DNA of 64,000 nt from Roseateles sp. XES5 (GTDB lineage: Bacteria; Pseudomonadota; Alphaproteobacteria; Rhizobiales; Rhizobiaceae). The notes below the pieces were generated by a model. The model was not told the origin of the DNA and searched no databases. It saw only the letters and a list, made by a program, of their open reading frames with translations. Made by a program: the position numbers and the translations under genes. How positions within the stretch are numbered: position 1 is the stretch's first letter; the number at the start of each line of letters is the position of its first letter. Of the stretch, positions 1,361 through 44,419 are shown piece by piece. The DNA lies in assembly GCF_020535545.1 (NCBI RefSeq), contig NZ_CP084752.1:3623501-3687500 (forward strand), read 5' to 3'.

Positions 1361-3160
1361 TCATTTTTTCTTCGCCTTGGCCTTCTTCGGCTCAGGAGCC
1401 GTCGGCATCGGCCCTTTGTAGCCGGCCGTCCGAAGATATTCCGGCAGCCAGCCCGTCCTCTTTGCGACGTCAACGACTGCCGTGACCATATCCGCCTTCT
1501 TGCCGTCCTTGAGGTCCTGGCCGGTGATCTCCTTGTAGGCCGCGAAGATGATGGGCTTGCGGGCCGCCTTGAAGAAGCTGTCGACGTCGAAATGCGGCGT
1601 GGGGTCCACATCAAACGCATCGAGGGTAGCCCGCCGCATCGCTGCGTTCGAGCCGAGCCATTCCTGGCTAACGTCTACCGTTCGCGACACCAGCTTCGCG
1701 AGGGCCGTGCCGATCTCGGCCGCGTCCATGTCCGAATACGACTTGAAGGCGTCCGCGTAAGAACGGGGGCTGGTGTCGCTTCCGTAGCTCCCCGGGGCGC
1801 TCCCGGGCTGTTCAAATTTGAGGCGGCCGGGCCGGTATTGGGTGTAGGACGAGACAGTGCCGAGCTCCAGGAAAGCGGCAAGCATAGCCAGAGCCTTCGG
1901 CGGATTTGCCTCGACAGCGTGGGCCAACGCGACAGTTGATGCCTTCCCCAGTTCAGAGAGCGTCGGCGCTGAGAGCGCAAGCGGGTCCTTTTCCTGTTTC
2001 GGGCTTGAGGTGCTCGCAGACGACGACGCTTTTGGTTCGACCATGCCGAACTCGACCTGGTAGTTGCGGTCGTCGTAGATCACAACGCCAGACTTGGCTT
2101 TTTGCTCCGCCGAGAACTTGCGGCCGGCATTCTGGAATGCTTCGTATTCCTTTTCGAGCCGTTCGAACTCTTCGAACTCCTCATCGTCGAGTTGATCTGC
2201 CTCAGCTCGCTCGGACAGGGGCCCGAGGCGCGCTGCCATCTCGTCCATCCTGGCTTGATCATCGGCCGAGAGGACGACTTCCTCGGGCTTCAGTCTGGTA
2301 AGCTGCCAGCTGTTGCAGGCGAGCTCGCCCAGCGTTTTCACGAACGACCAACCGTCCGCGGTGAGGTCGGCCTTTAATTCGGCAATGCGTTCGACCTTCA
2401 GCCGTTCGATGAGGTCGAGGCTGATCCAGAAATTGTGATCCTCGAACAGATCCACCGTGACCTTGCCGCCGGCGGCGAGGTATCGTTCCTCGCCAATGAA
2501 GGTTGCGACCTGACCGTTCGAGCGAAGAGCGGCCCCCGTGATGGCGGTTTTGATGTTGTGGCTGGTGTCGCGGCACCAGGTCGGCAGATTATCGTAGATT
2601 TCGAGCTGGCGGTCCGGATCCGGCTCGAGCGTGTAGGCGGACGCCGCTGCGAACGAGAGCTTGCCGTCGTCCACCAATTCAAGAAGGGTTTCGTGCAGCC
2701 CGCCGAGCGCAAGCCGCCCCATAACGAACTTGATGGACTGCCCGAAGCGCAGCGCGATCTCTTCGACGCTGAGCCCCTCGTCGGCGAGGCGCACGAACGC
2801 CTTGAACTCATCGACCGGCCGCATCGCACGACGCATGATGTTTTCCGCGAGGCTAAGCTCCTCAGCGTCGTCGTCACCGGCAGGTTTCAGGAGTGCGGGG
2901 ATGAGATAGTCGGCCGGCAGCTTGCCGTCGAAAATGAGTTCGTTGACTGCCTGCAAGCGGCGGCCGCCGGCGAACACGCGGTAGCGATCGCCTTCAAGGT
3001 CGCGATCGGCGCCGGCTGGCGCCCGAACGGCAATCGGCTGGATTATGCCGTGGGCGAGAATGGATGCCTTCAGGGAATCGAGGGAGTCGGCGTTGCGCAT
3101 CTTGCGGGCATTGTGCGTGTCGAGCACAAGCCGATCGGCGGTGAGCAGCATCTGTTCCAT
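1361..3160 (-). CDS. ParB-like nuclease/CTPase-fold protein, 599 aa
   Basis: ParB/RepB/Spo0J-type protein. After an N-terminal segment, residues 61-70 read RVFAGGRRLQ (the GxRR box), then SLAENIMRRAM with a downstream PVDEF matches the second ParB box, followed by a helix-turn-helix (VEEIALRFGQSIKFVMGRLA). The long C-terminal part has an acidic stretch near residue 325 and a Lys-rich tail (PEPKKAKAKKK). The start at 3160 is chosen because AAGAGG lies about 10 bases upstream; the longer open frame to 3271 begins with a Pro/Arg-rich non-conserved stretch. ParB proteins bind centromere-like sites for partition; plasmid and phage forms can also regulate genes. No ParA partner is visible in the window. 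Confidence 0.85.
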   Translation of the reverse strand: MEQMLLTADRLVLDTHNARKMRNADSLDSLKASILAHGIIQPIAVRAPAGADRDLEGDRYRVFAGGRRLQAVNELIFDGKLPADYLIPALLKPAGDDDAEELSLAENIMRRAMRPVDEFKAFVRLADEGLSVEEIALRFGQSIKFVMGRLALGGLHETLLELVDDGKLSFAAASAYTLEPDPDRQLEIYDNLPTWCRDTSHNIKTAITGAALRSNGQVATFIGEERYLAAGGKVTVDLFEDHNFWISLDLIERLKVERIAELKADLTADGWSFVKTLGELACNSWQLTRLKPEEVVLSADDQARMDEMAARLGPLSERAEADQLDDEEFEEFERLEKEYEAFQNAGRKFSAEQKAKSGVVIYDDRNYQVEFGMVEPKASSSASTSSPKQEKDPLALSAPTLSELGKASTVALAHAVEANPPKALAMLAAFLELGTVSSYTQYRPGRLKFEQPGSAPGSYGSDTSPRSYADAFKSYSDMDAAEIGTALAKLVSRTVDVSQEWLGSNAAMRRATLDAFDVDPTPHFDVDSFFKAARKPIIFAAYKEITGQDLKDGKKADMVTAVVDVAKRTGWLPEYLRTAGYKGPMPTAPEPKKAKAKKK

Positions 3161-3240: not shown

Positions 3241-3627
3241 TTATGCGGCATCTGCCACCTGCTGGCGGCAAAGCGACCTGACCAGGCCGCGGATGGACAG
3301 CCGGACGTTCGGATCGCCGATTGCCTCGAAGTCGTTGGCAAGAGAGATCGCTTCCTTGCTCATCGCGAATGCGGGCTCCGCATTTGGGTCGGCCTCGGCG
3401 GCGGTGCCGGCGAAAAGCGTGTCGACCGTGACCCCAAAGACGGCAGCGATCTCCACGAGACGGCTTGCACTGACGCGGTTGGTGCCCCGCTCGTATTTCT
3501 GGACTTGTTGGAACGTCACGCCGATCTTGGCGGCTAGCGCCTCCTGGCTAACGCTGCGGCGGAGCCGCTGCTGGCGAATGTTATTGCCGACCTGCACATC
3601 TGCGGCTGCGGGCTTCTTGGCTTCCAT
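3241..3627 (-). CDS. XRE/Cro-CI family transcriptional regulator, 128 aa
   Basis: Single HTH_3 domain at about residues 14-68 (RQQRLRRSVSQEALAAKIGV, then TFQQVQKYERGTNRVSASRL), followed by a short C-terminal segment without a peptidase domain. It is therefore a DNA-binding regulator that cannot be inactivated by RecA-stimulated self-cleavage. GGAAGAGGAA lies just before the ATG. It sits between the clamp gene and the ParB-like gene in the same orientation. Its target is unknown; the divergent control region at 15.8-17.2 kb is the obvious candidate. Confidence 0.85.
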   Translation of the reverse strand: MEAKKPAAADVQVGNNIRQQRLRRSVSQEALAAKIGVTFQQVQKYERGTNRVSASRLVEIAAVFGVTVDTLFAGTAAEADPNAEPAFAMSKEAISLANDFEAIGDPNVRLSIRGLVRSLCRQQVADAA

Positions 3628-3702: not shown

Positions 3703-4875
3703 CTACGCCGCGGATGGCATCAGCACGCCCGTCCAGCCGCCGATGGAGCCGGAGACAAGCGCCGGGGAAGCGGCATCCTTCATCCGGATGATCATCTTCC
3801 GTCCGTCCGGGCTGGCTGCCTCGATCGCCGAGCGCAGGTTCTTGGCGTCGAAGGCGATGGTGAATTCGTCACCCTCGTAGCTGCAATCGACCACCACGCT
3901 GCCTTCGCCTGACGCACCGGTCACGGTGATCGCGATCTCGCTCTCGGAAAAAGCGAGACGCACCAGTTCTGCACTGGCGCCCTCGGCCAGAGCCGCGACG
4001 GCTTCGGATAGCGCGCCGCCGGCAACCGCGACCTTCTTGTCCGGATCGGTGGGGATAACGCGGCCATAGTCCGGGAACGGACCGTCAACCAAATTCATGG
4101 TCACCGCCATCCCACGGAACACGAACACGGCCACGCCCCCCGAGAGTTCGACCTGCACCGGATCAGCGCCGGCATAGCCGTCGAGCAGGCTGGCGACGAA
4201 CTTCGCGCCGTCGGTCGGCAGGATGGCGCTGATCTCGGATTTCCCGGTCTGGACGTTGCTATCCTGGATGTAGAGACGGTGCCCATCGGTGGCTGCAAAC
4301 CGCAGGCGGCCATGGTAATCGTGCAGGTAGACGCCATTGAGGTTGCGGCGCGTCTCGTCCGTAGAGACCGCATCGAGCGTGCCGTCGATCGCGTTCCAGA
4401 GCACCGCGCTGGGAATGGAGAAGCGCTGGATCTTCGAGCCCTCCGCGTGGCGAATGGGCTCAGGAAAATCGCCGGTCGGCATGACGTCAATCACGAACCG
4501 TGTCGTGCCAACATGGACTGCGCATTTGGCCGCCACGAAGCGTTCGTCGACGGCGCCGTCCTCGGCGGTGAGCTCCAGGATGGCGTGGTTGCTGGGCGTG
4601 CCCTTCTTCATGAGCTTCAGCAGAGCCGCGGCCGGCAGGGCGGCCGAAAAGCGGGCGTCGGTGTCCGCCGTCATAGACGTTTCCGCCTGAAGCGATGAGT
4701 TCGTGGCGATGAAGGCCAGCCCGCCTGTCTCTGACGAGACACGGACATGGCCGAGGATCGGGTGCATCGGACGCGCGCAGAGCCTGGCAAGCAGGGCAAT
4801 CCGATCGGTGAATTCCGCCCTGTCGACGAGCGCGGACGGGTTTTCTGTGGTGAAAAGGGGTACGACTTTCTGCAT
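3703..4875 (-). CDS. dnaN: Prophage-encoded DNA polymerase III beta sliding clamp
   Basis: Full-length (390 aa) beta clamp. Hallmarks seen are ETRRNLNGVYLH in domain 2, RFAATDGHRLYI, and FPDYGRVIPTDPDKK opening domain 3, plus a hydrophobic C-terminal strand ending GWTGVLMPSAA. The chromosomal clamp is usually 366-372 aa, so this copy is slightly longer with an altered N-terminus. The start at 4875 has AGGAGA about 6 bases upstream. The clamp encircles DNA and tethers polymerase, ligase and mismatch repair proteins. No polymerase, clamp loader or primase gene is seen near it, so it probably works with host enzymes. Confidence 0.93.
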   Translation of the reverse strand: MQKVVPLFTTENPSALVDRAEFTDRIALLARLCARPMHPILGHVRVSSETGGLAFIATNSSLQAETSMTADTDARFSAALPAAALLKLMKKGTPSNHAILELTAEDGAVDERFVAAKCAVHVGTTRFVIDVMPTGDFPEPIRHAEGSKIQRFSIPSAVLWNAIDGTLDAVSTDETRRNLNGVYLHDYHGRLRFAATDGHRLYIQDSNVQTGKSEISAILPTDGAKFVASLLDGYAGADPVQVELSGGVAVFVFRGMAVTMNLVDGPFPDYGRVIPTDPDKKVAVAGGALSEAVAALAEGASAELVRLAFSESEIAITVTGASGEGSVVVDCSYEGDEFTIAFDAKNLRSAIEAASPDGRKMIIRMKDAASPALVSGSIGGWTGVLMPSAA

Positions 4876-4929: not shown

Positions 4930-6222
4930 TCAAAGACCGAAATCGAAAAGGGATGGTCCGGAGGGGGGCGGCCTGGGCGGCGCTCTCCGCTTGGCGAGCG
5001 GTGACCGAATGGGGGTGACCTGTGTCGGGGTTATCGGTGCGGCTGCATGTTCGGTGGCGCGATCAGCGGCCAGCCGCCCTGTCCAGAAGCCCATGATGTG
5101 CGCCGGCGTGAACCAATCCTCGCGAAATTCGAGGCGGAGCGTGTCGCCAACGATGACCTGTGCCGGAATGTGCAGTAGCGAGAACTGGACGTAGGCCATG
5201 TGCACGGCGCGCGGGTCGATATCGACGGCCGTCACATGAAGATGCTGCTGATAGTTGACGCCGAGATCCTTGATTGCTTCAGCCAAGGCGATGATCGTGG
5301 CGCCGGCGCCGACTGCCGGCTCTTGGGCGGTGATGTATCCGCGCTTGTCGATGATCGCCTGCAGGTCCTCGGCGGTGCCCGCGTTGATCTTGGCCATCAT
5401 CCTGCAGAGCTCGTACGGCGTGAAGAACTGGCCGCGCGCCTTGTTGTGCAGCTCGAGCTCGTGGAACGTAGCGCCCAGAATATCCTGCGGCGCTGCCTCA
5501 AGCGCCATCGTCACCTCGCCGAAGATTTGCGGAAACGTGGCCAGCTCCTCCTTGGTGTAGCGCTTGACGATATCGAGGTAGCGAGCCTCGCGCTTCTCAC
5601 GCTGGCGGATATCCATGGCATTGCTCATGGCGATCGCAGCGCATTCACACCAATCGGAAAACACCTGATAGATATCGTGGCGATATCGACAGGTCTCGAA
5701 GAGTTTCACGATGCTCGCCAGGTGCTGATTGGCCATTGGAATCCTATAGGTCAAAAGAGGAAGCCCCGTTTTCGGACGGGGCTCGGGAGATTCCTTGATG
5801 GTGATGAGTGTCGGTGGTGGACGACTTGTTTCCTGGGCGATGATGGCGCGGGCCCAGTTTATGACGGCGGCGAGATCTGGCCCTTCCAGCTTCCCGGTGA
5901 AGAGCCCATTCCATCGGCGAGACGCCCGAGCCACACGGATCATCCGCGCCGCGGCGACACGGATGGCCGTTTCACGGGTGCCGTAGACGCAAGGTCGGGG
6001 CTTCTCCCAGTGGCCGTTGCAGTTGTTCTCGCTGATGGAATAGACCGAACCATCGGTGGAGAAACGGCCGTCGGCGAGCGCTACGATTCCGAAGTTCCAA
6101 CGGGAATCAATGCGGTAGCCGAACTCCTTGTTCGCCCACCACCAGTCAGTGAACCAGAGATAGTGATTTTGCGGCGCGCGGCCATAGATGTCCCGGATCG
6201 GGCCGTCATACTCCCGTGACAT
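4930..6222 (-). CDS. N6-adenine DNA methylase-like protein fused to an unknown N-terminal domain, 430 aa
   Basis: The C-terminal part (from about residue 162) resembles the HsdM/type I methylase fold: LHNKARGQFFTPYELCRMM is the segment before motif I, EPAVGAGATIIALAEAI is the AdoMet-binding loop, and VTAVDIDPRAVHMAYVQ is motif II. The catalytic (N/D)PP(Y/F) motif is not visible; the frame ends soon after VIVGDTL. The N-terminal part (Trp-rich, PQNHYLWFTDWWWANKEFGY) is unrelated and unrecognised. The start at 6222 has AGGA 8 bases upstream and overlaps the upstream gene by 17 bp. A terminator-like hairpin and a possible second start (ATG 5738) lie at the junction, so two genes may have merged. 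Confidence 0.75.
   Translation of the reverse strand: MSREYDGPIRDIYGRAPQNHYLWFTDWWWANKEFGYRIDSRWNFGIVALADGRFSTDGSVYSISENNCNGHWEKPRPCVYGTRETAIRVAAARMIRVARASRRWNGLFTGKLEGPDLAAVINWARAIIAQETSRPPPTLITIKESPEPRPKTGLPLLTYRIPMANQHLASIVKLFETCRYRHDIYQVFSDWCECAAIAMSNAMDIRQREKREARYLDIVKRYTKEELATFPQIFGEVTMALEAAPQDILGATFHELELHNKARGQFFTPYELCRMMAKINAGTAEDLQAIIDKRGYITAQEPAVGAGATIIALAEAIKDLGVNYQQHLHVTAVDIDPRAVHMAYVQFSLLHIPAQVIVGDTLRLEFREDWFTPAHIMGFWTGRLAADRATEHAAAPITPTQVTPIRSPLAKRRAPPRPPPSGPSLFDFGL
5751..5783 (-). other. Terminator-like hairpin inside the methylase-like reading frame
   Basis: Perfect 8-bp stem AGCCCCGT/ACGGGGCT (5762-5769 and 5776-5783). Read leftward it is followed by TTCCTCTTTTGA. It lies just upstream of the internal ATG at 5738, which has an AGGAT ribosome site. 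This is the usual arrangement at a gene boundary, yet no stop codon separates the two halves. Confidence 0.6.
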
Positions 6223-7051
6223 CCGCGTGTCCTGCAATGAGCATGATGAACGACACCTTGTCGACCTTGCGGAGGTCGACGACATCGATGTTGTCGAGGA
6301 TCCACTTCCGCAGGTCGGCTGGCTTGACGTCCCAGGCGCTGCCGCCCTGCTGCGTGCGGCGCTGATCCTCGCGCTTTGTCGCCGGCAGCTCGCCGGAGAT
6401 GATTCGGGCGGTCATCGACTTGTCATCGATGCCGAGGATCCGCGCGCAGCCGCGCGCCGATAGCTCTTCCCGGGCAGCGCGCCGAGACAGGTTGAGCCGC
6501 TTCGCCCGCACGACGATCGCCGTGGGTGAGCGGCTGAAGCCGTGCTCGCGGAAGAACCTTGCCGCCTTGTCCGGCATGTGAAGCGGCGCTTTCTTCATCA
6601 ACTCGTCTTCCGCGGCAGTCCACTGCGGCTCCTTCTTGTGGCGGGTCGTCAGCCCGAGATGCGTCAGACGCTTCGACAACCACCAGCGCGGGACGCCGAG
6701 ACGGTCAGCGAGATCGTTGACCACGCCCTTCTTGCCGGCGTTGAGCTGCTGCCACTCTTTGCGGATACGCTCGTCGAGTTCCGGCGTCGCGTCATATCGT
6801 CCCTTGTGAGGAGAGGGCGCACTCGACGTGACGCCGAGATTTTTCGCTCGCTGATATACACCGCTCGGCGTGCGGTGCGCTGCCAGGCGCGTCAGGCACG
6901 CCGCTGCGCCGCCGGCGGGGAAGTACGCGCGGATGATCGCATCCTCATCCTCAGTCCAGAAGCGCTTGTCGCGCTTCCCCGGAACGCAAGGAGCCGAGAT
7001 GCGCGGGTCCTGCCCGCGCGGCTTGCTGAAGGTGACGGGTTTCAGGCTCAT
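6206..7051 (-). CDS. Myb/SANT-like DNA-binding protein, 281 aa
   Basis: Two Trp-containing helix repeats. Residues about 30-75 (KRFWTEDEDAIIRAYFPAGG, later TPSGVYQRAKNLGV) and about 140-190 (PQWTAAEDELMKKAP, later SPTAIVVRAKRLNLSRR) follow the W..xED..l pattern of Myb/SANT-like domains common in phage early genes. A third HTH-like segment (ARGCARILGIDDKSMTARII) follows. It is coupled by a 4-bp overlap to the HerA-type gene upstream and by a 17-bp overlap to the methylase-like gene downstream. Likely a DNA-binding regulator or accessory factor; its site is unknown. Confidence 0.7.
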   Translation of the reverse strand: MSLKPVTFSKPRGQDPRISAPCVPGKRDKRFWTEDEDAIIRAYFPAGGAAACLTRLAAHRTPSGVYQRAKNLGVTSSAPSPHKGRYDATPELDERIRKEWQQLNAGKKGVVNDLADRLGVPRWWLSKRLTHLGLTTRHKKEPQWTAAEDELMKKAPLHMPDKAARFFREHGFSRSPTAIVVRAKRLNLSRRAAREELSARGCARILGIDDKSMTARIISGELPATKREDQRRTQQGGSAWDVKPADLRKWILDNIDVVDLRKVDKVSFIMLIAGHADVTGV

Positions 7052-15240: not shown

Positions 15241-15836
15241 CTACGCCGCGATGGTGTTCGCGGCCGGGGCCTGCAGCGCGGCGGCCGGGGTATCGTCAGC
15301 CTTCGGCGCGGCGTTCTTGCCTGCCGGCGGCAAGGGCTTCTGGTTGCGGACGACGACGACCGGACCCTTGGCGACCTTCTGCGCGCCCTCGATGGCGCGG
15401 ATGATGCGCGGATCCACCTCTTCCTTGGTCAGCTTTTCGAGCACCTTGGCGAGATAGTCGACGACGACGAAAGCCTTCGGATCGGCGGCGGCTTCCTTGC
15501 GGCCTTCTCGAAGTTGGCCGGGGCGATCTCCATTGCGCCTTCGATGTTCGACGGCTTGGACTTGGCGTAGACGAACGTGCCGCCCTGGCCGCTCTCGGCA
15601 GCCTTGAAGGTGCACTTGCCGAATTCGAGGAACCACTTGCGCAGGCCGGTGCGATAGTTCGCCGGCGACATGTCATAGAGGGCCTGCACATAGATGACGT
15701 CATTGTGTTCGCCGAGATGGGCAAGGGCGGACACGGCGAGCTGGTGCTCGCGCTGCGTGAAGGTGGCGATCTGAGCGCCGCGGCCGGCGATTGCGGACTT
15801 GAGGGCCTTGCCGGTGATGATTTCGAACTTTGCCAT
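15241..15836 (-). pseudogene. Hypothetical early protein interrupted by a one-base frameshift
   Basis: The first reading frame starts at ATG 15836 (AGGAGA 8 bases upstream, MAKFEIITGKALKSAIAGRG). It stays in one frame until about 15500, where the sequence reads EIAPANFEKAA, then runs off into nonsense and stops at 15429. The frame shifted by -1 continues as KEAAADPKAFVVVDYLAKVL to 15241. Adding one C in GCCGC-AAGGAAGCC joins them perfectly. It is the first gene of the leftward operon. The downstream part shows no further damage, so the change is recent, a sequencing error, or a programmed shift. Function unknown. Confidence 0.75.
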
Positions 15837-16414
15837 TGTCGTTTCTCCTGTTGGGTGTCCCTCGCGCAGGGACGGTTGAGGCAGATTGCCGGGAAAGCGC
15901 CGCCAGTCGGTGGCCTTTCCGGGCAGTCTGAGGAGAGAGGGCAAGCAGTGGCCTGCCCTTCAGATTTTCCGTTGTGATTTTTTCTTGAGGTATCCCGACT
16001 TGCGGGGGGCTAGCTTTTCGGGGGGCGGCAACCTTTCGGGTTATCATTGGACCGCAGTCCACCGCGCATTGCCCCGCGCGCTCTGTCTTCGCTCCACCAC
16101 ACACATGGTTGTCACGTCGGCCTCACGGCCTCCATACCCTGCATTTCTTGCGCAGGTCACCGCGTCACGCGGCTTATGCTGGAACACCTCAACAGCCCTT
16201 CCTTTTTCATAAGTCAGCGCGGGAGGGAGCGCCCGATTGGCAGCAGAGGCGTCACCCTCTCCAATCACCGATATCGCCGATACGCGAGACCCAGCAGCCC
16301 GCCTTACAATCGAGGCTTTGCCCGCTTTCGCGAGGTTGTCGCCTAAACCTTGGGGCCGATAACCGGACCATCGCCAGCTTTTCAAAGAACCTTGCGGAGG
16401 CTCTAGGCCGTCTC

Positions 16415-16560
16415 GCAATCTCGAAGTGATTTCGTTTTCGCTTCGGTGATTGAGAGAATATCGATTTCATTTCGTTATGCAATGCGGTTTTGGCGCAAAT
16501 CGAAGTGAAAGCCGCTAAGGCGTTGATTTGAAAGCGAAGAAATTTTCGTTTTCGCCGTTC
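16415..16560. repeat. AT-rich segment with CGAARTGAAA motifs in both orientations
   Basis: This stretch is markedly richer in A and T than the rest of the phage. The motif CGAARTGAAA (or its complement TTTCAYTTCG) occurs as CGAAGTGATT at 16422 (partial), TTTCATTTCG at 16465 and CGAAGTGAAA at 16501, and TTTCGTTTTCGC-like words recur. AT-rich DNA next to iterons is the usual layout of a replication origin, where the duplex first opens. Confidence 0.5.
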
Positions 16561-16753
16561 GAATGGCCAAAAACGCATTGGTTGCGATTTTCTGGCGCGG
16601 GCAGGGCGGGCTTGAACCGAATCACTCGTCGGCGCGCGCTGTGCTTTTCGGGTGCCCTGCGGGCCGTTGCGCCGCCCGGAATGCCCGCCGCGCAAAATAT
16701 TTTTTGCTCGCAGATCAAGGGTTGTATCTCCGGCTTTTCCGAAGCGCCGCCGC

Positions 16754-16892
16754 GCGGAAGAATTGCGGAAAGAACGCGGAAAAACGGCGGAAAATACGCG
16801 GAAAACCCGCTGCCTTCTGCCTCTGGTTGCCGTGGTCTCAGGCGCTCGAAAATCAGGGCGCGGAAAATCTGCGGAAAAATCGCGGAAAATCG
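16754..16892 (+). repeat. Two arrays of 11-bp iterons, consensus GCGGAAAANNN
   Basis: Array 1 starts at 16754, 16765, 16776, 16787 and 16798 (GCGGAAGAATT, GCGGAAAGAAC, GCGGAAAAACG, GCGGAAAATAC, GCGGAAAACCC). Array 2 starts at 16860, 16871 and 16882 (GCGGAAAATCT, GCGGAAAAATC, GCGGAAAATCG). Spacing within each array is exactly 11 bp, about one helical turn, so a protein bound to each copy would sit on nearly the same face. The binder is unknown; the ParB-like, XRE and Myb-like proteins of the early operon are candidates. Confidence 0.85.
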
Positions 16893-16940
16893 GTGCTGGC
16901 CTCGCATGCGCACGCGCGGAGATTTTTATTTATCCTTGAT

Positions 16941-16965
16941 GGAGAGGGCCTTCAGGCCCTTCTCC
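16941..16965. other. Hairpin beside the iteron arrays
   Basis: GGAGAGGGCC and GGCCCTTCTCC pair around a TTCA loop with one bulged T. It lacks a clear T-tract on the rightward strand. It could be a weak terminator or a structural element. Confidence 0.4.
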
Positions 16966-17038
16966 CTTCTCCAATCAGGGAGGGAAAGAACCTTCCGCGA
17001 GGGCAGACCCTGAGCGCGGTAGGCCGCTGGTGGCGCGC

Positions 17039-17134
17039 TTGACAAAAACCGCCGTAACGAGTCATCTGGCTACGGATGCTTGATTTGCGTCTAGAGACAA
17101 GGCGGTCGCCCCTCCCGGGCTGGACCGCCTTTTT
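17039..17134 (+). ncRNA. Candidate short transcript between a TTGACA box and a terminator
   Basis: A perfect -35 hexamer TTGACA (17039-17044) is followed, about 55 bases later, by a strong terminator. No -10 box matches well and there is no open frame in between. A transcript of about 70 nt starting near 17070 would consist largely of the terminator hairpin. It may be a small RNA or simply the tail of a read-through transcript. Confidence 0.3.
17099..17134 (+). terminator. Rho-independent terminator upstream of the HNH gene
   Basis: AGGCGGTC/GACCGCCT stem (17100-17107 and 17123-17130), with a nested GCCC/GGGC stem in the loop, ending in five T residues (17130-17134). It would stop rightward transcription coming from the iteron region just before the late genes. 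Confidence 0.8.
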
Positions 17135-17155
17135 CGTTCCCGGCAAGGGGCATCC

Positions 17156-17482
17156 ATGGCACGCAACAGCTATTACAGCTCGCCGCATTGGCGCGCCCTC
17201 AAACGTGCCACCCATGAGCGGGACGGGTGGAAATGCGTTGTACCTGGCTGCGGCTCTTCCGCTGGCCTTGTCTGCGACCACATCCGCACGCGGCCCAACA
17301 TCGACCACGCCACGGCCTTTGATGCCATCTCCAACACCCGCACGCTCTGCGGCGTTCATGATCGTCAGATCAAGGAACAGCGCGGCGGTGCTCGCCGACG
17401 AGATGGCAAACCCATCGTGCAGGGGTGCAAGCCGGACGGCTCGCCCCTTGACCCGCGCCACCCTTGGTTCAGGAGACCATGA
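17156..17482 (+). CDS. HNH endonuclease, 108 aa
   Basis: Complete HNH fold. Zinc cysteines are C27 and C32 (WKCVVPGCG) with C65 and H68 (TLCGVHD). Catalytic residues are D41-H42 (LVCDHIRTRPN), N60 and H68. AGGGG precedes the ATG. HNH proteins next to terminase genes cut DNA during packaging in HK97-type and other cos phages, so it is likely part of the packaging machine rather than a homing nuclease. Overlaps the next start (ATGA). Confidence 0.9.
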   Translation: MARNSYYSSPHWRALKRATHERDGWKCVVPGCGSSAGLVCDHIRTRPNIDHATAFDAISNTRTLCGVHDRQIKEQRGGARRRDGKPIVQGCKPDGSPLDPRHPWFRRP

Positions 17483-17730
17483 TGCACACTGCGGCGGCCT
17501 ATCTCCGGGAAGGGGCAAACGACCTTGAGGCCAGCGCGAAGCAGCGCCGCGAAATGATTGCTGACCTGCAAGGCAAAATAGCCGCGCTTGAGGACGCCGC
17601 CCGGACGTTCGAGGACGACGCGCGGGAGCTTAGAGCCGCTGCTTGTGCGCTCGAAGGAACAAGCGCTTCGATGGCTGGTGCTGACCTGCCGGGCAGCGCT
17701 GGCAAGGTGGCTCCGCCCCGCGATTGGTGA
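17479..17730 (+). CDS. Small coiled-coil protein, 83 aa
   Basis: AGGAGA lies before the tandem ATG codons at 17479 and 17482. The central part (EASAKQRREMIADLQGKIAA, later ALEDAARTFEDDARELRAAA) is a long heptad-rich helix, followed by a loose Pro/Gly tail. Function unknown. Confidence 0.6.
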   Translation: MMHTAAAYLREGANDLEASAKQRREMIADLQGKIAALEDAARTFEDDARELRAAACALEGTSASMAGADLPGSAGKVAPPRDW

Positions 17731-17924
17731 GGCCGGGGGGTGGTCGAATGTCTGGGGGAGGTGGGGCGCCCACCGTCCGGGGCCTTCGTTTGCAGTGGGA
17801 GCAAAATAAGCGCCCCCCCTTTCTTGAAACGAAGACTCAGATTTTAGGCGCAATAGCCTGACATTCCCGCCGCCGGCACCCCTGCTGCCGGGGCGAAACC
17901 AGCTCCTTCCGGCTTAGGGTTGGT

Positions 17925-18086
17925 ATGATTAAGAAGCCGGCGCGCACGTCGCCTCTACGAGGGACACAAGCGCGACAATTCGAGGAGCTTCCAAGGGAAG
18001 TCCCAAGGTTAGCTCCCAAGCTATCGGCCCGCGCTACGGCGCGCCCGACATCGAACCTGGGTGACGGACAAGGCTATGGCCCGTGA
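17925..18086 (+). CDS. Possible small basic protein, 53 aa
   Basis: ATG at 17925 with AGGG about 7 bases upstream. The frame begins MIKKPARTSPLRGTQARQFE and ends in NLGDGQGYGP. Basic and low in hydrophobic residues. It lies in an otherwise empty stretch (17731-18230). Composition is not clearly protein-like, so this is tentative. Confidence 0.3.
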   Translation: MIKKPARTSPLRGTQARQFEELPREVPRLAPKLSARATARPTSNLGDGQGYGP

Positions 18087-18230
18087 GGTGACAGGCGGGG
18101 AGTGGGACGGCTGCGCTGCGGCACAGCCGGAAGACCACCGAAGTCGATTACCAAGCCGGGGTGGGAAGCGCGTGGTCTTCCAGGTTCGATACCGCGGCCA
18201 GCGGGACCGGTCTCAACAAGGAGAAGTCGC

Positions 18231-18488
18231 ATGTTCAAAAGCGAACAGACCGAAATGCGCGCGAAGATGCGCATCACGGAAGTCAATCGGTTCGAAGGTT
18301 CGGACCGGATCAAGATGGTGGCCGTCGCCCGTTCCGCTGGCTATCCCGCCGACGGGTCCGACGAAGACAATACCTATGCCAAGTATACGCCGCAGGGTGA
18401 GTTGACGATCACGGTCAACAATCCCGCGCTACTCGGCAAGTATGAGCCCGGGACGAAGTTCTATCTCGACTTCACGCCGGCCGAGTAA
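18231..18488 (+). CDS. Conserved phage hypothetical protein, 85 aa
   Basis: AAGGAGAA lies 8 bases before ATG 18231. Contains NRFEGSDRIKMVAVARS and a C-terminal TVNNPALLGKYEPGTKFYLD followed by FTPAE. The last part is shared by many small proteins encoded near phage terminase genes (NPALxGxxxPGxxfYldFTPa). Role unknown. Confidence 0.75.
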   Translation: MFKSEQTEMRAKMRITEVNRFEGSDRIKMVAVARSAGYPADGSDEDNTYAKYTPQGELTITVNNPALLGKYEPGTKFYLDFTPAE

Positions 18489-18542
18489 CCCGCTCACGGG
18501 GTGGGCACGTTGCCCATCCCGCCCGCCAACCTCTGAGTTTCC

Positions 18543-19031
18543 ATGAGAGGCAGAAAACCGAATCCCACCCCGGTCACCAACGTCGTCCCGGGGCCGTTTC
18601 CCGGCGTCGAGGCGCCGGAGGTCGAGTTCGAAGAGCCGGATTGGCTCCTGACGGTCAACGTCAAGGAATGGGGCAAGCGCCGTGCGAAGATCGCAAGCGA
18701 GCGCTGGAAGACCCTGACGCAAAGCTTGGCCCGCAAGGGCCTGCTGGACGTCGACAATGACGTGCTCATCGAGATGGCCGCCGGCGCCTACGCTGACTGG
18801 AAGTTGGCTGAGGCTCATGTGGCTCGCTACGGCGTGATGATGCCGGCGCCCAAGACCAAGGTCATGATGCACAACCCGTACAAGGCGATAGCCGACGCCG
18901 CGATGAAGCGGGTCATGGCAGCCGAACGCGAGCTCGGGATCCCGCCGACGGAACGCGGGCGCGCCGAGAAGGCGCCGCCGAGATCTGGAAGGAAGAAGCG
19001 CGCAGCCGATGCCTACCTCGGGAACAAGTGA
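18543..19031 (+). CDS. terS: Terminase small subunit, P27 family, 162 aa
   Basis: Begins MRGRKPNPTPVTNVVPGPFP, the typical start of P27-family small terminases (RGRKP...). A helical core follows (MAAGAYADWKLAEAHVARYG) and a basic tail (PPRSGRKKRAADAYLGNK). The small subunit recognises the packaging site and hands DNA to the large subunit. It overlaps the large terminase start by 23 bp. Confidence 0.88.
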   Translation: MRGRKPNPTPVTNVVPGPFPGVEAPEVEFEEPDWLLTVNVKEWGKRRAKIASERWKTLTQSLARKGLLDVDNDVLIEMAAGAYADWKLAEAHVARYGVMMPAPKTKVMMHNPYKAIADAAMKRVMAAERELGIPPTERGRAEKAPPRSGRKKRAADAYLGNK

Positions 19032-20874
19032 TCCGGTAACCGACTGGGCCCAGGAGGTCGTCGACGGTTGGATCACGTCCGGTCATTTCGGCCGCCTTGC
19101 GTGCCAGCGACATCTGCGCGACCTTGAAACTGGCCATCAGCGCGGATTGGAATGGCGGCCGGAAGCAGCGCTGAAGGCGCTTAACTTCTTTCCGTCCGTG
19201 CTGATGGTTACCGCCGGCGCTATGGCGAACACGCCGTTCCATCTGCCCAGCTATACGACCTTCGTGGTCGGTTCGCTCTACGGCTGGTATCGGAAGGATA
19301 GCGGACGTTTGCGGTTCCGCTCCTCGTGGGTGGAAACGGGCAAGGGGCAGATCAAATCGCCCGTCGCCGCGGCGCTCGGCCTGTACAATATGGCCTTTCG
19401 CGGCATTCCACGCGCCGAGTGCTATGCGATCGCCAAAGACCGCAACCAGGCGAATGTTCTTTTCGGCGATGCGTCCGCGATGGCGCTGGCCGAGATGCCG
19501 GAAGCGGAATTCGACGGTGAGAGCCTAGTGTCGCGCGGCACGATCGTTACGCGCGGCACGGGCGACATGATCTGGATGCTCGAGCATCCGGGTAGCGGCT
19601 CAAAGTTTCGCTCGCTTGCTGGCGACGAAAAGGTCAACGGTCCGCGCCCGACGTATGTAGCCGCCGACGAAATCCACGAGTGGAAATCGGATGGCGCGTT
19701 GAACACCTGGAAATCGGCCGGCGCCAAAATGCCCGGCGACTTCCTACTGTGGATGTCCACAAACACCCCGGCCGCGGATCAGGTCGTTGCGACGGAATGG
19801 AGCCAGAAGCACCAGCGCATTTTGCGTGGTGAGGCAGACGACGATTCGGCGTTTGCCTTCATTGCGCGCGTCGATCCGGACGACAAGCCGTTCGAAGACG
19901 AGAGCTGCTGGCGGAAATCCATGCCCTGCCTCGGCATCACGTTTCCGATCGAGAACGTCCGGATCGAGGTAAATTCGGCGCGGCATTCGGTCGGCACCCG
20001 ATTGAGCACCGAGCGCCTGTATTTCGGCATTCCTGTCGGATCGTCCGAATACTGGATCGACCTGGACTTCTGGGATGCGGTGCAGGGTGTCGTCGATATC
20101 GATGACGCGGGCGACCGGGACCTGTACCTGTCGCTCGACTTGTCAAAAAAGAACGACTTGACAGCGATCGGCCTGGGCTGGTCGGACGACAAGGGCGTCC
20201 TGCATGCGACGGTTGAATATTGGAAGCCGTCCGAGAAGCTGAAGGAAAAAGCTGAGGAGGACCACGCGCAATATGTCGAGTGGGCCGCTGCAACACCGCC
20301 CCTTCTGAACTTGGTGAAGGGCCGCTCGATCGAGTACGAGTTCATCGCGCAGCGCATCAAACAGCTTGTGGCTAAGTTCAACGTACCGGCGCTAGTTGTT
20401 GATCCGGCTTATCTTTCTGACTTTCGAAAGGCATGCGAAAATGTCGGCCTCGACGTCTGGGTATGGGAACCGGATGGTGAAATCGGGTCCGGCCTGAAGA
20501 TCATGATCCACGGCCAGGGCCGTCTCGGCATGCAGTCGAAGAAGGCGCTCTGGATGCCGCGCTCGCTTCAGAAATTCGAGGACAGGATTCTGCAGCGGCG
20601 GGTAGTCATACACGAAAGCCCCATCACGAAATGGTGCTCCGGCAATGCTGCGATTCAGCCCGACGCGCAGAACAACCGGTTCTTCGTGAAGAAGCACCAG
20701 CGCGGGCGCATCGATGGCATGACGGTCCTGGCGATGCTGAGCGGGGCCGCAGATCTCGATGACGCCGACGGCGGTCAATCCGGCATCGACACGGCAGAGG
20801 ACCTGGACGATCTGGAGGCCATGATCGAAGCCGAGCTTGCCGCCATGGAACAGGATGTTCCGCACCTATTCTGA
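19009..20874 (+). CDS. terL: Terminase large subunit, 621 aa
   Basis: HK97/YmfN-type terminase with an N-terminal ATPase and a C-terminal RNaseH-fold nuclease. The Walker A region is SSWVETGKGQIKSPVAAALG (about residues 102-122); relatives normally have Gly before the Lys, here Ile. Walker B is PTYVAADEIHEW (about 212-223). The nuclease domain opens with DLYLSLDLSKKNDLTAIGLG. The enzyme cuts concatemers and pumps DNA into proheads. Confidence 0.92.
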   Translation: MPTSGTSDPVTDWAQEVVDGWITSGHFGRLACQRHLRDLETGHQRGLEWRPEAALKALNFFPSVLMVTAGAMANTPFHLPSYTTFVVGSLYGWYRKDSGRLRFRSSWVETGKGQIKSPVAAALGLYNMAFRGIPRAECYAIAKDRNQANVLFGDASAMALAEMPEAEFDGESLVSRGTIVTRGTGDMIWMLEHPGSGSKFRSLAGDEKVNGPRPTYVAADEIHEWKSDGALNTWKSAGAKMPGDFLLWMSTNTPAADQVVATEWSQKHQRILRGEADDDSAFAFIARVDPDDKPFEDESCWRKSMPCLGITFPIENVRIEVNSARHSVGTRLSTERLYFGIPVGSSEYWIDLDFWDAVQGVVDIDDAGDRDLYLSLDLSKKNDLTAIGLGWSDDKGVLHATVEYWKPSEKLKEKAEEDHAQYVEWAAATPPLLNLVKGRSIEYEFIAQRIKQLVAKFNVPALVVDPAYLSDFRKACENVGLDVWVWEPDGEIGSGLKIMIHGQGRLGMQSKKALWMPRSLQKFEDRILQRRVVIHESPITKWCSGNAAIQPDAQNNRFFVKKHQRGRIDGMTVLAMLSGAADLDDADGGQSGIDTAEDLDDLEAMIEAELAAMEQDVPHLF

Positions 20875-43404: not shown

Positions 43405-43846
43405 TGCCCTGCTCGCCGCTGCCGTGGCGCTGATCGGGTCCTGGGAGGGCCTTCGCACTGTCGCCTATCGCGATGTCGTCGGCATTCCGACCGTCTGCTA
43501 CGGCGAAACGCGCGGCGTTTCGATGGGCGACAGCTACACGGCCGAAGAATGCCGGGCGATGCTCGGCGACGGCATCGTGGAATTCGAGCAGGGCATGCGC
43601 AAATGCCTGACGGCGCCCGATGCCATCCCCGCGAAGAGCTATGTGGCGTTCCTTTCGCTCTCCTACAACATCGGCAACCGGGCCTTCTGCGGGTCGACGG
43701 TGGCGCGCCGCGCCAATGCCGGTGACGTCCGCGGGGCTTGCGAGGCGATCCTGATGTGGGACAAGGCGGGCGGGCGGCGCGTGCAGGGCCTCGCGAACCG
43801 CCGCGCCGACGAGCGGCGCATCTGCCTGCAGGGGGTTGCGGGCTGA
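43379..43846 (+). CDS. Endolysin, T4-type lysozyme (GH24), SAR-like, 155 aa
   Basis: Catalytic triad E23, D32 and T38 (SWEGLRTVAYRDVVGIPTVC), spaced as in T4 lysozyme (E11-D20-T26). The N-terminal helix (KKGSALLAAAVALIGSW) is weakly hydrophobic and Gly/Ala-rich, typical of signal-anchor-release endolysins that are exported by the host Sec system. GGAGG precedes the start. Cleaves peptidoglycan. Confidence 0.9.
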   Translation: MTSRLKKGSALLAAAVALIGSWEGLRTVAYRDVVGIPTVCYGETRGVSMGDSYTAEECRAMLGDGIVEFEQGMRKCLTAPDAIPAKSYVAFLSLSYNIGNRAFCGSTVARRANAGDVRGACEAILMWDKAGGRRVQGLANRRADERRICLQGVAG

Positions 43847-44211
43847 TGTCGCCCGTCACCTGGCTCGTACAGTCGCTCGGCCTGACCGGAATCCTCGCGG
43901 TCGCGGCTTTCGGCTGGCATCTCTACGACCGGAACCAAGCCTATCAGGCCGGCCAGCGCGATGAGCGGCTTGTCTGGCAGGAGCGCCAGGCGCGCGCCGC
44001 GGCCACGCGGCAGGCGGAGCGCGACGCAGCCCAGACCAAGATCGATTCGGCCGAGCGGGATTACCTCGCCCGAGAGACGGCCGCCGCCATCAAGATTTCC
44101 GAACTGGAGAAAGCCCTTGAAGAGGATCAGACGAGCAGCCCTGCTGCTGGTTGCGGCCCTGCCGTGTCTCGGCGGCTGCGCGACGCTCTCGACGCAATCG
44201 GCCGCGACTGA
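43846..44211 (+). CDS. i-spanin (Rz-like), 121 aa
   Basis: One N-terminal membrane helix (VQSLGLTGILAVAAFGWHLY) followed by a long charged coiled coil (RQARAAATRQAERDAAQTKI). Start overlaps the endolysin stop (TGATG). Partner of the outer-membrane spanin encoded within its 3' end; together they fuse the inner and outer membranes. Confidence 0.8.
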   Translation: MSPVTWLVQSLGLTGILAVAAFGWHLYDRNQAYQAGQRDERLVWQERQARAAATRQAERDAAQTKIDSAERDYLARETAAAIKISELEKALEEDQTSSPAAGCGPAVSRRLRDALDAIGRD

Positions 44212-44419
44212 CGGGCGCGCGATCGACCCGGCCCGCGTGCCGGAAAGCTTGAAGCAGGCCTGCCGCCCGGTGGTTGGCCTGCCGGCCGGAGATCTGTCGT
44301 CCGCCGAGACGGCGCGCCTGTGGGGACAGGATCGAGCGGCGCTGGGCGAATGCCGGCGCCGGCATGGGGCGTTGGTGAACGCAATCAACGCGATTGAGGG
44401 GCAGGGGACCGATGATTGA
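44117..44419 (+). CDS. o-spanin lipoprotein (Rz1-like), nested, 100 aa
   Basis: Starts at TTG 44117 with GGAGA 7 bases upstream, inside the i-spanin gene in another frame. Signal peptide with lipobox LGG-C (RRAALLLVAALPCLGGCATL), then a hydrophilic tail. Nested Rz1 genes are typical of lambda-like lysis cassettes. It is longer than lambda Rz1. Confidence 0.75.
   Translation: MKRIRRAALLLVAALPCLGGCATLSTQSAATDGRAIDPARVPESLKQACRPVVGLPAGDLSSAETARLWGQDRAALGECRRRHGALVNAINAIEGQGTDD

Follow-up and report, generated by a model that had tools for sequence, protein, structure and literature searches.

Phased 11-bp direct repeats in a Rhizobiaceae prophage as a candidate iteron part of its replication origin

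Two arrays of direct repeats, of five and three units with a period of exactly 11 bp and a common core of GCGGAA, occupy the control region of a prophage in Roseateles sp. XES5. On comparative grounds and by analogy with known replicons, they probably form the iteron part of the phage's own replication origin, working like an IncQ oriV. Within the window, meaning the whole 64,000-nucleotide stretch of DNA analysed, they lie where the leftward early genes meet the rightward packaging genes, a position that an earlier, sequence-only reading had also given. The arrays are arranged as follows.

16754..16808, + strand: left array, five 11-bp iterons (starts 16754, 16765, 16776, 16787, 16798), from exact spacing, Tandem Repeats Finder and relatives
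16809..16859, no strand: spacer between the arrays, from the alignment of relatives
16860..16892, + strand: right array, three 11-bp iterons (starts 16860, 16871, 16882), from exact spacing, Tandem Repeats Finder and alignment

The earlier reading had counted eight copies of GCGGAAAA. All eight units are present at these starts with exact 11-bp spacing; six of them carry the exact sequence, while those at 16754 (GCGGAAGA) and 16765 (GCGGAAAG) deviate at position 7 or 8. Both arrays are called by Tandem Repeats Finder. Chains of at least three exact 6-mers occur twice in the window at lag 11, whereas 40 Markov-1 shuffles gave a mean of 0.0 at that lag; one further chain, at lag 22, falls inside the Tandem Repeats Finder span of the left array. 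Throughout the organism's own genome (5,810,938 bases), three GCGGAAA at 11-bp spacing with at most one mismatch are found nowhere but here (4 overlapping matches on the + strand, 0 on the − strand and 0 in the reversed control). When both arrays of the window and of the related loci L089 and L094 are pooled, all 24 units retain GCGGA and 23 have the A that follows it.

The arrays are supported as noncoding because conservation across relatives has a period of 11, not 3, with indels between the arrays. The same conclusion had earlier been drawn from a period that is no multiple of three; the conclusion holds, but that general argument is unsafe, since 12 of 72 genome loci with the same pattern share one protein family. 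These 12 (L020, L025, L028, L031, L036, L037, L038, L068, L069, L072, L075 and L085) carry 11-bp GCGGAAA repeats near the shared family in bacteria and archaea. We read the family as AlbA_2-like, and in several of the loci the array lies at or across the 3' end of the gene and looks to us like a coding repeat. In total, three GCGGAAA at 11 bp were found in 72 genome and 11 viral stretches, and one triple with a single mismatch was seen in G219. Within the DNA fetched, only L006/L011, L015 and L022 match the packaging proteins of the window, and pattern matches were rejected as a guide to relatedness, few of them sharing those proteins. For the window itself, several repeats of one orientation, helically phased and set in noncoding DNA, are present as in an iteron origin.

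Relatives were gathered by pattern scans and a search with the terminase small subunit (TerS). The close ones are 74-79% identical to the window in the HNH endonuclease, 88-93% in TerS and 86-89% in the terminase large subunit (TerL), with the more distant L096 set apart. Seven sequences, the window included, were aligned. L089, L091, L093, L094 and L022 all carry both arrays in the same position, as does L090 for the portion it contains; some units of the left array have degenerated in L022 and L093. The contigs L090 and L091 are nearly identical in sequence, and L092 falls short of the region. Only GGAA cores, mostly still 11 bp apart, are left of the units in L095. The distance from the start of the last left unit to that of the first right unit is 62 bp in the window, 63 bp in L094, L022, L089 and L091, and 52 bp in L093, where the right array has four units. 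Among phage records, none matched the DNA of 15400-19100, and Rfam at gathering thresholds gave no match in the window. Searches of open-licence literature (11-bp phage repeats, GCGGAAAA, ParB-like prophage repeats in Rhizobium, phage or IncQ iterons) returned no title or abstract describing this motif.

The arrays are flanked by further conserved or structurally distinct elements.

16693..16732, no strand: low-stability stretch left of the arrays, candidate unwinding element (99.87th percentile of low duplex stability, 40-bp windows, first 46 kb)
16694..16706: AT-rich AAAATATTTTTTG, left of the arrays, within the low-stability stretch
16899..16919, no strand: GC-rich block GCCTCGCATGCGCACGCGCGG, 81% GC (81-86% in 7/7 aligned phages; several invariant alignment columns)
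16920..16942, no strand: AT-rich block, 26% GC, candidate unwinding element (13-26% GC in 7/7 aligned phages)
16941..16965, + strand: hairpin with predicted stem, candidate priming hairpin or terminator
17039..17065, + strand: TTGACA (17039-17044) and ACGAGTCAT (17057-17065), candidate rightward promoter with GANTC site (invariant alignment columns)
17099..17135, + strand: second conserved hairpin followed by TTTTT, terminator-like or second priming hairpin (stem predicted in 7/7 sequences)

To the right of the three-unit array, the order of a 21-bp GC-rich block, a 23-bp AT-rich block and a hairpin is kept in all seven aligned phages. We read the GC-rich block as an imperfect inverted repeat. 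The sequence of the hairpin varies among relatives, with a stem still possible. Between 16200 and 17150, four 40-bp stretches rank at or above the 99.8th percentile for low stability within the first 46 kb (16445-16484, 16515-16554, 16693-16732 and 16917-16956, the last at the 99.8th), so that AT-rich, low-stability DNA adjoins the repeats, as in iteron origins. The AAAATATTTTTTG stretch is the same in five of the six aligned sequences that span it; L093 is one T shorter and L091 stops short of it. Further left, about 700 bp at 15840-16556 contain no convincing gene but include two TCGAAGTGA repeats and the very unstable 16445-16484; the longer stretch to which they belong is 83% identical in L095. 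Downstream of the hairpin, the alignment shows a rightward leader with invariant TTGACA and ACGAGTCAT; a consensus promoter scan called none at 17039..17065. An invariant GAGTC (GANTC) follows TTGACA there in all seven phages. GANTC, the CcrM methylation site, is scarce in the window (74 found against 325 expected, an expected figure that may count this palindromic pattern twice), and 17039-17065 may be a methylation-dependent (GcrA-type) late promoter.

A comparable succession is described for IncQ plasmids, whose oriV elements comprise iterons, a G+C-rich region, an A+T-rich region and palindromes (excerpt of PMC7557826). In the IncQ plasmid pFECG, used as a yardstick, three iterons at 22 bp are followed by up to 71% GC, a dip to 38% GC (both in 21-bp windows) and two palindromes. 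The prophage likewise has direct-repeat iterons and then GC-rich, AT-rich and palindromic segments, in that order, together with a helicase domain that may be of RepA type. It differs in that the iteron period is 11 bp instead of some 20-22 bp (22 bp in pFECG), the arrays are two instead of one, and the helicase is fused to a primase. The helicase of RSF1010 is the repA product, and its oriV is bound by the repC product (excerpt of PMC2200642). Since the period differs and RepC and RepB lie outside the comparison, the arrays are not filed as a member of IncQ oriV, which they resemble in layout and perhaps in the associated helicase domain. The lambdoid ori, with its O-protein iterons, is a phage origin with a few iterons beside AT-rich DNA; the present arrays differ in being intergenic, not inside an initiator gene, and in having another helicase and another unit. 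The parC site of plasmid R1 (ParMRC) shares the 11-bp direct repeats, ten of which flank its promoter, and ParR needs at least two 11-bp repeats (excerpt of PMC9426499). Unlike parC, the prophage has 5+3 units and a GC/AT/hairpin tail; no ParM or ParR was seen among the proteins scanned, which include some but not all of the small ORFs.

Association of the arrays with particular genes was assessed across more distant prophages. The early genes concerned are the following.

1361..3160, − strand: ParB-like protein of 599 aa, ParB N-terminal domain and HTH, candidate iteron binder (Pfam, NCBIfam, PHROGs, Foldseek, co-occurrence)
3703..4875, − strand: phage DNA polymerase III beta clamp, in the early operon (domain and family matches)
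15429..15836, − strand: first gene of the leftward early operon, phrog_1448, marker of the early module (PHROGs, relatives)

The first early gene has relatives in four other genomes and eight viral records outside the window group. Two of the records are the same prophages as genomes (G775 and G776 apparently correspond to G362 and G116 and are counted once), and among the ten carriers the arrays occur in G059 only. Absence refers, for L290-L294, to 16.3-kb loci (lags 8-15) plus 4.5 kb upstream of the gene, which are parts of the whole records, and, for G362, G116 and G177, to 39.8-kb contexts. A linkage of the arrays to the first early gene alone was rejected, as eight carriers show no array in the DNA searched. 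In G059 (locus L238) both arrays stand in both positions with an 11-bp period and the unit CTCGGACNNNN, which retains the CGGA core, and a GC-rich stretch and a hairpin follow. The order is that of the seven phages with weaker contrast, the GC block being short, with 76% GC (measured over a window that takes in the tail of the last unit) and then 43% GC in the AT block. No match to the terminase genes of the window was found in G059. The element thus does not follow the packaging module, G059 having the arrays without that terminase. Because G059 retains the layout with another unit sequence, the binder is more probably encoded by the phage than a constant factor of the host.

Two genes accompany the arrays. 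An AAA_25 protein, whose gene lies in the prophage's left flank, slightly beyond the edge of the window and about 17 kb left of the arrays, occurs in 7/7 array-bearing prophages (the window; G771-G774 and G783, at 74-84% identity; and G059, at 49%) and in 0/8 prophages that share the first early gene but are array-less where searched (G775-G781 and G177). The ParB-like protein has the same distribution (7/7 against 0/8) and, of the window's own early genes, is alone in being limited to the window group and G059. Two records, both taken as fragments, were left out of the seven and the eight: G784 (L090), a 31-kb record with the array, ending near it, and no ParB match; and G782 (L295), a 28-kb record with no array in the 8.3 kb examined and no ParB match. 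G771 (L095) was scored as array-bearing despite its worn GGAA units, which the exact-repeat scan had missed. Absence from related prophages with the same early operon had been named beforehand as a ground for refutation. It applies in part, to the eight carriers of the first early gene with no array where searched, but all eight also lack primase-helicase and ParB-like matches. The association with the primase-helicase is complete, yet it comprises only two lineages, and the cases are not independent. In three of the eight array-less prophages a DnaB-like protein stands near the primase-helicase position (G362/G775, G116/G776 and G177); the helicase of G362 is DnaB by Pfam, and those of G116 and G177 are DnaB in our reading.

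Other genes follow a similar pattern. Among window genes, the late-region ORF 43738-44419 also matches G059 alone, and three more left-arm ORFs, one of them weakly GapR-like, match G059 only among the four genomes compared, G775-G781 being outside this comparison for all four ORFs. Because of the three further left-arm matches, a wider replication block would be common to the window group and G059. The left arm of the prophage (L308, G000:C1:3603601-3623500) also encodes RecT, a YqaJ nuclease, an AAA_30/UvrD_C_2 helicase, a DnaJ-domain protein and the weakly GapR-like protein, and a tRNA-Leu(gag) at L308:1007-1091 may be an attachment site.

The AAA_25 protein models as a T7-gp4-like primase-helicase. 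Its predicted structure (mean pLDDT 81.8, pTM 0.43) has T7 gp4 as best fold match, with RSF1010 RepA also among the fold matches and the sole sequence match among solved structures at E≤0.001 (9e-07). Residues ~610-700 are predicted to form helices followed by a short beta pair, and we read this C-terminal part as winged-helix-like. Database relatives of the family number at least 244. Among 71 order-level genomes searched, only the own genome encodes the protein, and plasmids at a threshold of 1e-80 gave no match. A scan of 45,000 of the 61,694 bases of Microcystis phage Mae-JY30, whose primase-helicase is 35% identical, revealed no comparable array.

For an origin, we infer the steps of binding, melting and priming, along with the mode and direction of replication and the identity of the initiator. 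An initiator would oligomerise on the phased 11-bp units, along a single face of the helix. The three-unit array is succeeded by the GC-rich block and then by the AT-rich block, which would melt. The hairpin beyond the AT-rich block could act as a priming site, and the T7-gp4-like primase-helicase would then be loaded, assisted by the phage beta clamp. The initiator may be the primase-helicase, through its C-terminus, or the ParB-like protein, or else the product of a further gene in the left-arm block shared with G059. Several observations count against an origin: GC skew shows no sign change at the arrays, the primase-helicase gene does not adjoin them, the association covers two lineages only, the scanned stretch of Mae-JY30 is array-less, the GC and AT blocks of G059 are weak, and IncQ iterons have a 22-bp period in the yardstick plasmid. 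A broader proposal, held tentatively, is that of a temperate-phage IncQ-like replicon, in which the 11-bp iteron unit would co-evolve with a fused T7-gp4-like primase-helicase that has an origin-binding winged helix of its own, or with a CTP-dependent ParB-like initiator, and a single module of origin, primase-helicase and ParB-like protein would span unrelated packaging systems.

Alternatively, the repeats may be an operator array on which a phage regulator switches divergent early leftward and rightward transcription, a role that would be compatible with that of an origin and is in itself unlikely. The arrays do sit between the early operon and the rightward leader, with the invariant TTGACA and GANTC block and the hairpins downstream, but a conserved hairpin separates them from TTGACA, and an operator leaves both the co-occurrence with the primase-helicase and the GC/AT/hairpin order unexplained. 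Furthermore, the array-bearing 59.7-kb context of G059 yielded no homologue, at E≤1e-3, of either the XRE protein (3241-3627) or the D5/Myb-like protein (6206-7051). The sequence-only reading had proposed a site for an initiator or a master regulator. The initiator half gains indirect support from the primase-helicase co-occurrence, the order resembling IncQ oriV and the nearby low-stability DNA. Of the three binders it had suggested, the ParB-like protein alone has a homologue in G059. The 6206-7051 protein matches phrog_323 ('transcriptional regulator, D5-like') and is encoded beside an N6 methylase-like and a HerA/DUF87-like ATPase protein.

More doubtful still is a ParB loading site, from which the ParB-like protein, loaded either on the arrays or on the GC-rich inverted repeat, would spread for partition, silencing or anti-silencing in the manner of KorB or VirB. 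A ParB-family protein is encoded in the same element (Pfam PF02195 and PF17762, on a longer 636-aa frame), its distribution follows that of the arrays, and Foldseek places it nearest to ParB, Noc and KorB, with a ParB/Noc fold in about the first 200 residues. A precedent exists in VirB, a ParB relative that loads at its site in a CTP-dependent manner and controls transcription (excerpt of PMC10770331). Against this, known ParB sites are inverted repeats and the iterons are direct ones; the GC block, by our own reading, is an imperfect inverted repeat. The recognition helix is the same in L095, with its worn array, and in L093, with a clear one, which also slightly disfavours the ParB-like protein as the initiator. 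ParB-like relatives elsewhere lack arrays (0/9 genome contexts and none of the scanned stretches from five phage or plasmid records), and no ParA was found in the subset of window ORFs scanned. A ParB profile matched 0/18 of the other 8 viral GCGGAAA records and 10 viral CTCGGAC records, an empty result that says nothing by itself, as the set contains no positive.

A packaging site, with iterons bound by the small terminase beside cos, initially appeared the leading explanation, the arrays lying upstream of HNH, TerS and TerL in close relatives. It was dropped once a separate cos-like block had been found, and is now highly improbable.

17156..17482, + strand: HNH endonuclease, packaging module
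17733..17848, + strand: HK97-type cos region, likely packaging site, predicted cut near 17783 (block conservation, HK97 TerS site comparison)
18543..19031, + strand: terminase small subunit
19009..20874, + strand: terminase large subunit

The block lies between HNH and TerS, 0.9 kb right of the arrays, and is 81-87% identical in close relatives. It is also present in four more distant loci (L143, L130, L138 and L142), whose TerL is 60-74% identical, with E from 1e-5 to 5e-4; further loci, down to a TerL identity of about 50%, match it with non-significant E. None of these loci has arrays in the DNA examined. Metagenome contigs L142 and L185 begin exactly at the predicted cut (window 17783) and L135 about 4 bases before it, although many other contigs among the 80 loci compared begin elsewhere. 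HK97 TerS binds a single 15-bp site, which spans +15 to +29 relative to the cut and contains a G next to an A-tract (excerpts of PMC11331095; also PMC9410871); in the window, GAGCAAAATA stands at +17 to +26 from the predicted cut. The packaging module (HNH, TerS, TerL) is thus related to that of HK97 and has a nearby cos-like block. A cos or TerS site adjoins the DNA cut and virion ends; the predicted cut and the contig starts, as indirect evidence, place these at 17783 and not at the arrays. The likely cos is the block at 17733..17848, distinct from the arrays. No arrays were found in L130 and L143 (TerL 73-74%, HNH 60-65% and TerS 31% identical) or in L096 (TerS 62-66% identical), and G059 keeps the array layout without the window's terminase. 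In L235, L237 and L238, a GGGTCCTTCC block with GCGCAGCGCAG nearby, upstream of terminase genes that were read as lambda-type, is possibly a cos site. Intrinsic curvature from A-tracts phased at 11 bp, with no specific binder, was rejected as barely credible: AAAA is present in most window units, but position 7 is A in 14, G in 9 and T in 1 of the 24 units of the window, L089 and L094, and the G059 units have no A-tract at that place while retaining the CGGA core.

To our knowledge, few origins of temperate Rhizobiaceae phages have been mapped. The reading of the arrays as the iteron part of an origin makes a short defined fragment and a few candidate proteins available for origin work in these phages, and it connects a candidate origin with a primase-helicase family that has at least 244 relatives in the database. 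It raises the question of whether phage ParB-like proteins take part in initiation. In this phage group, the candidate origin is now separated from the cos site.
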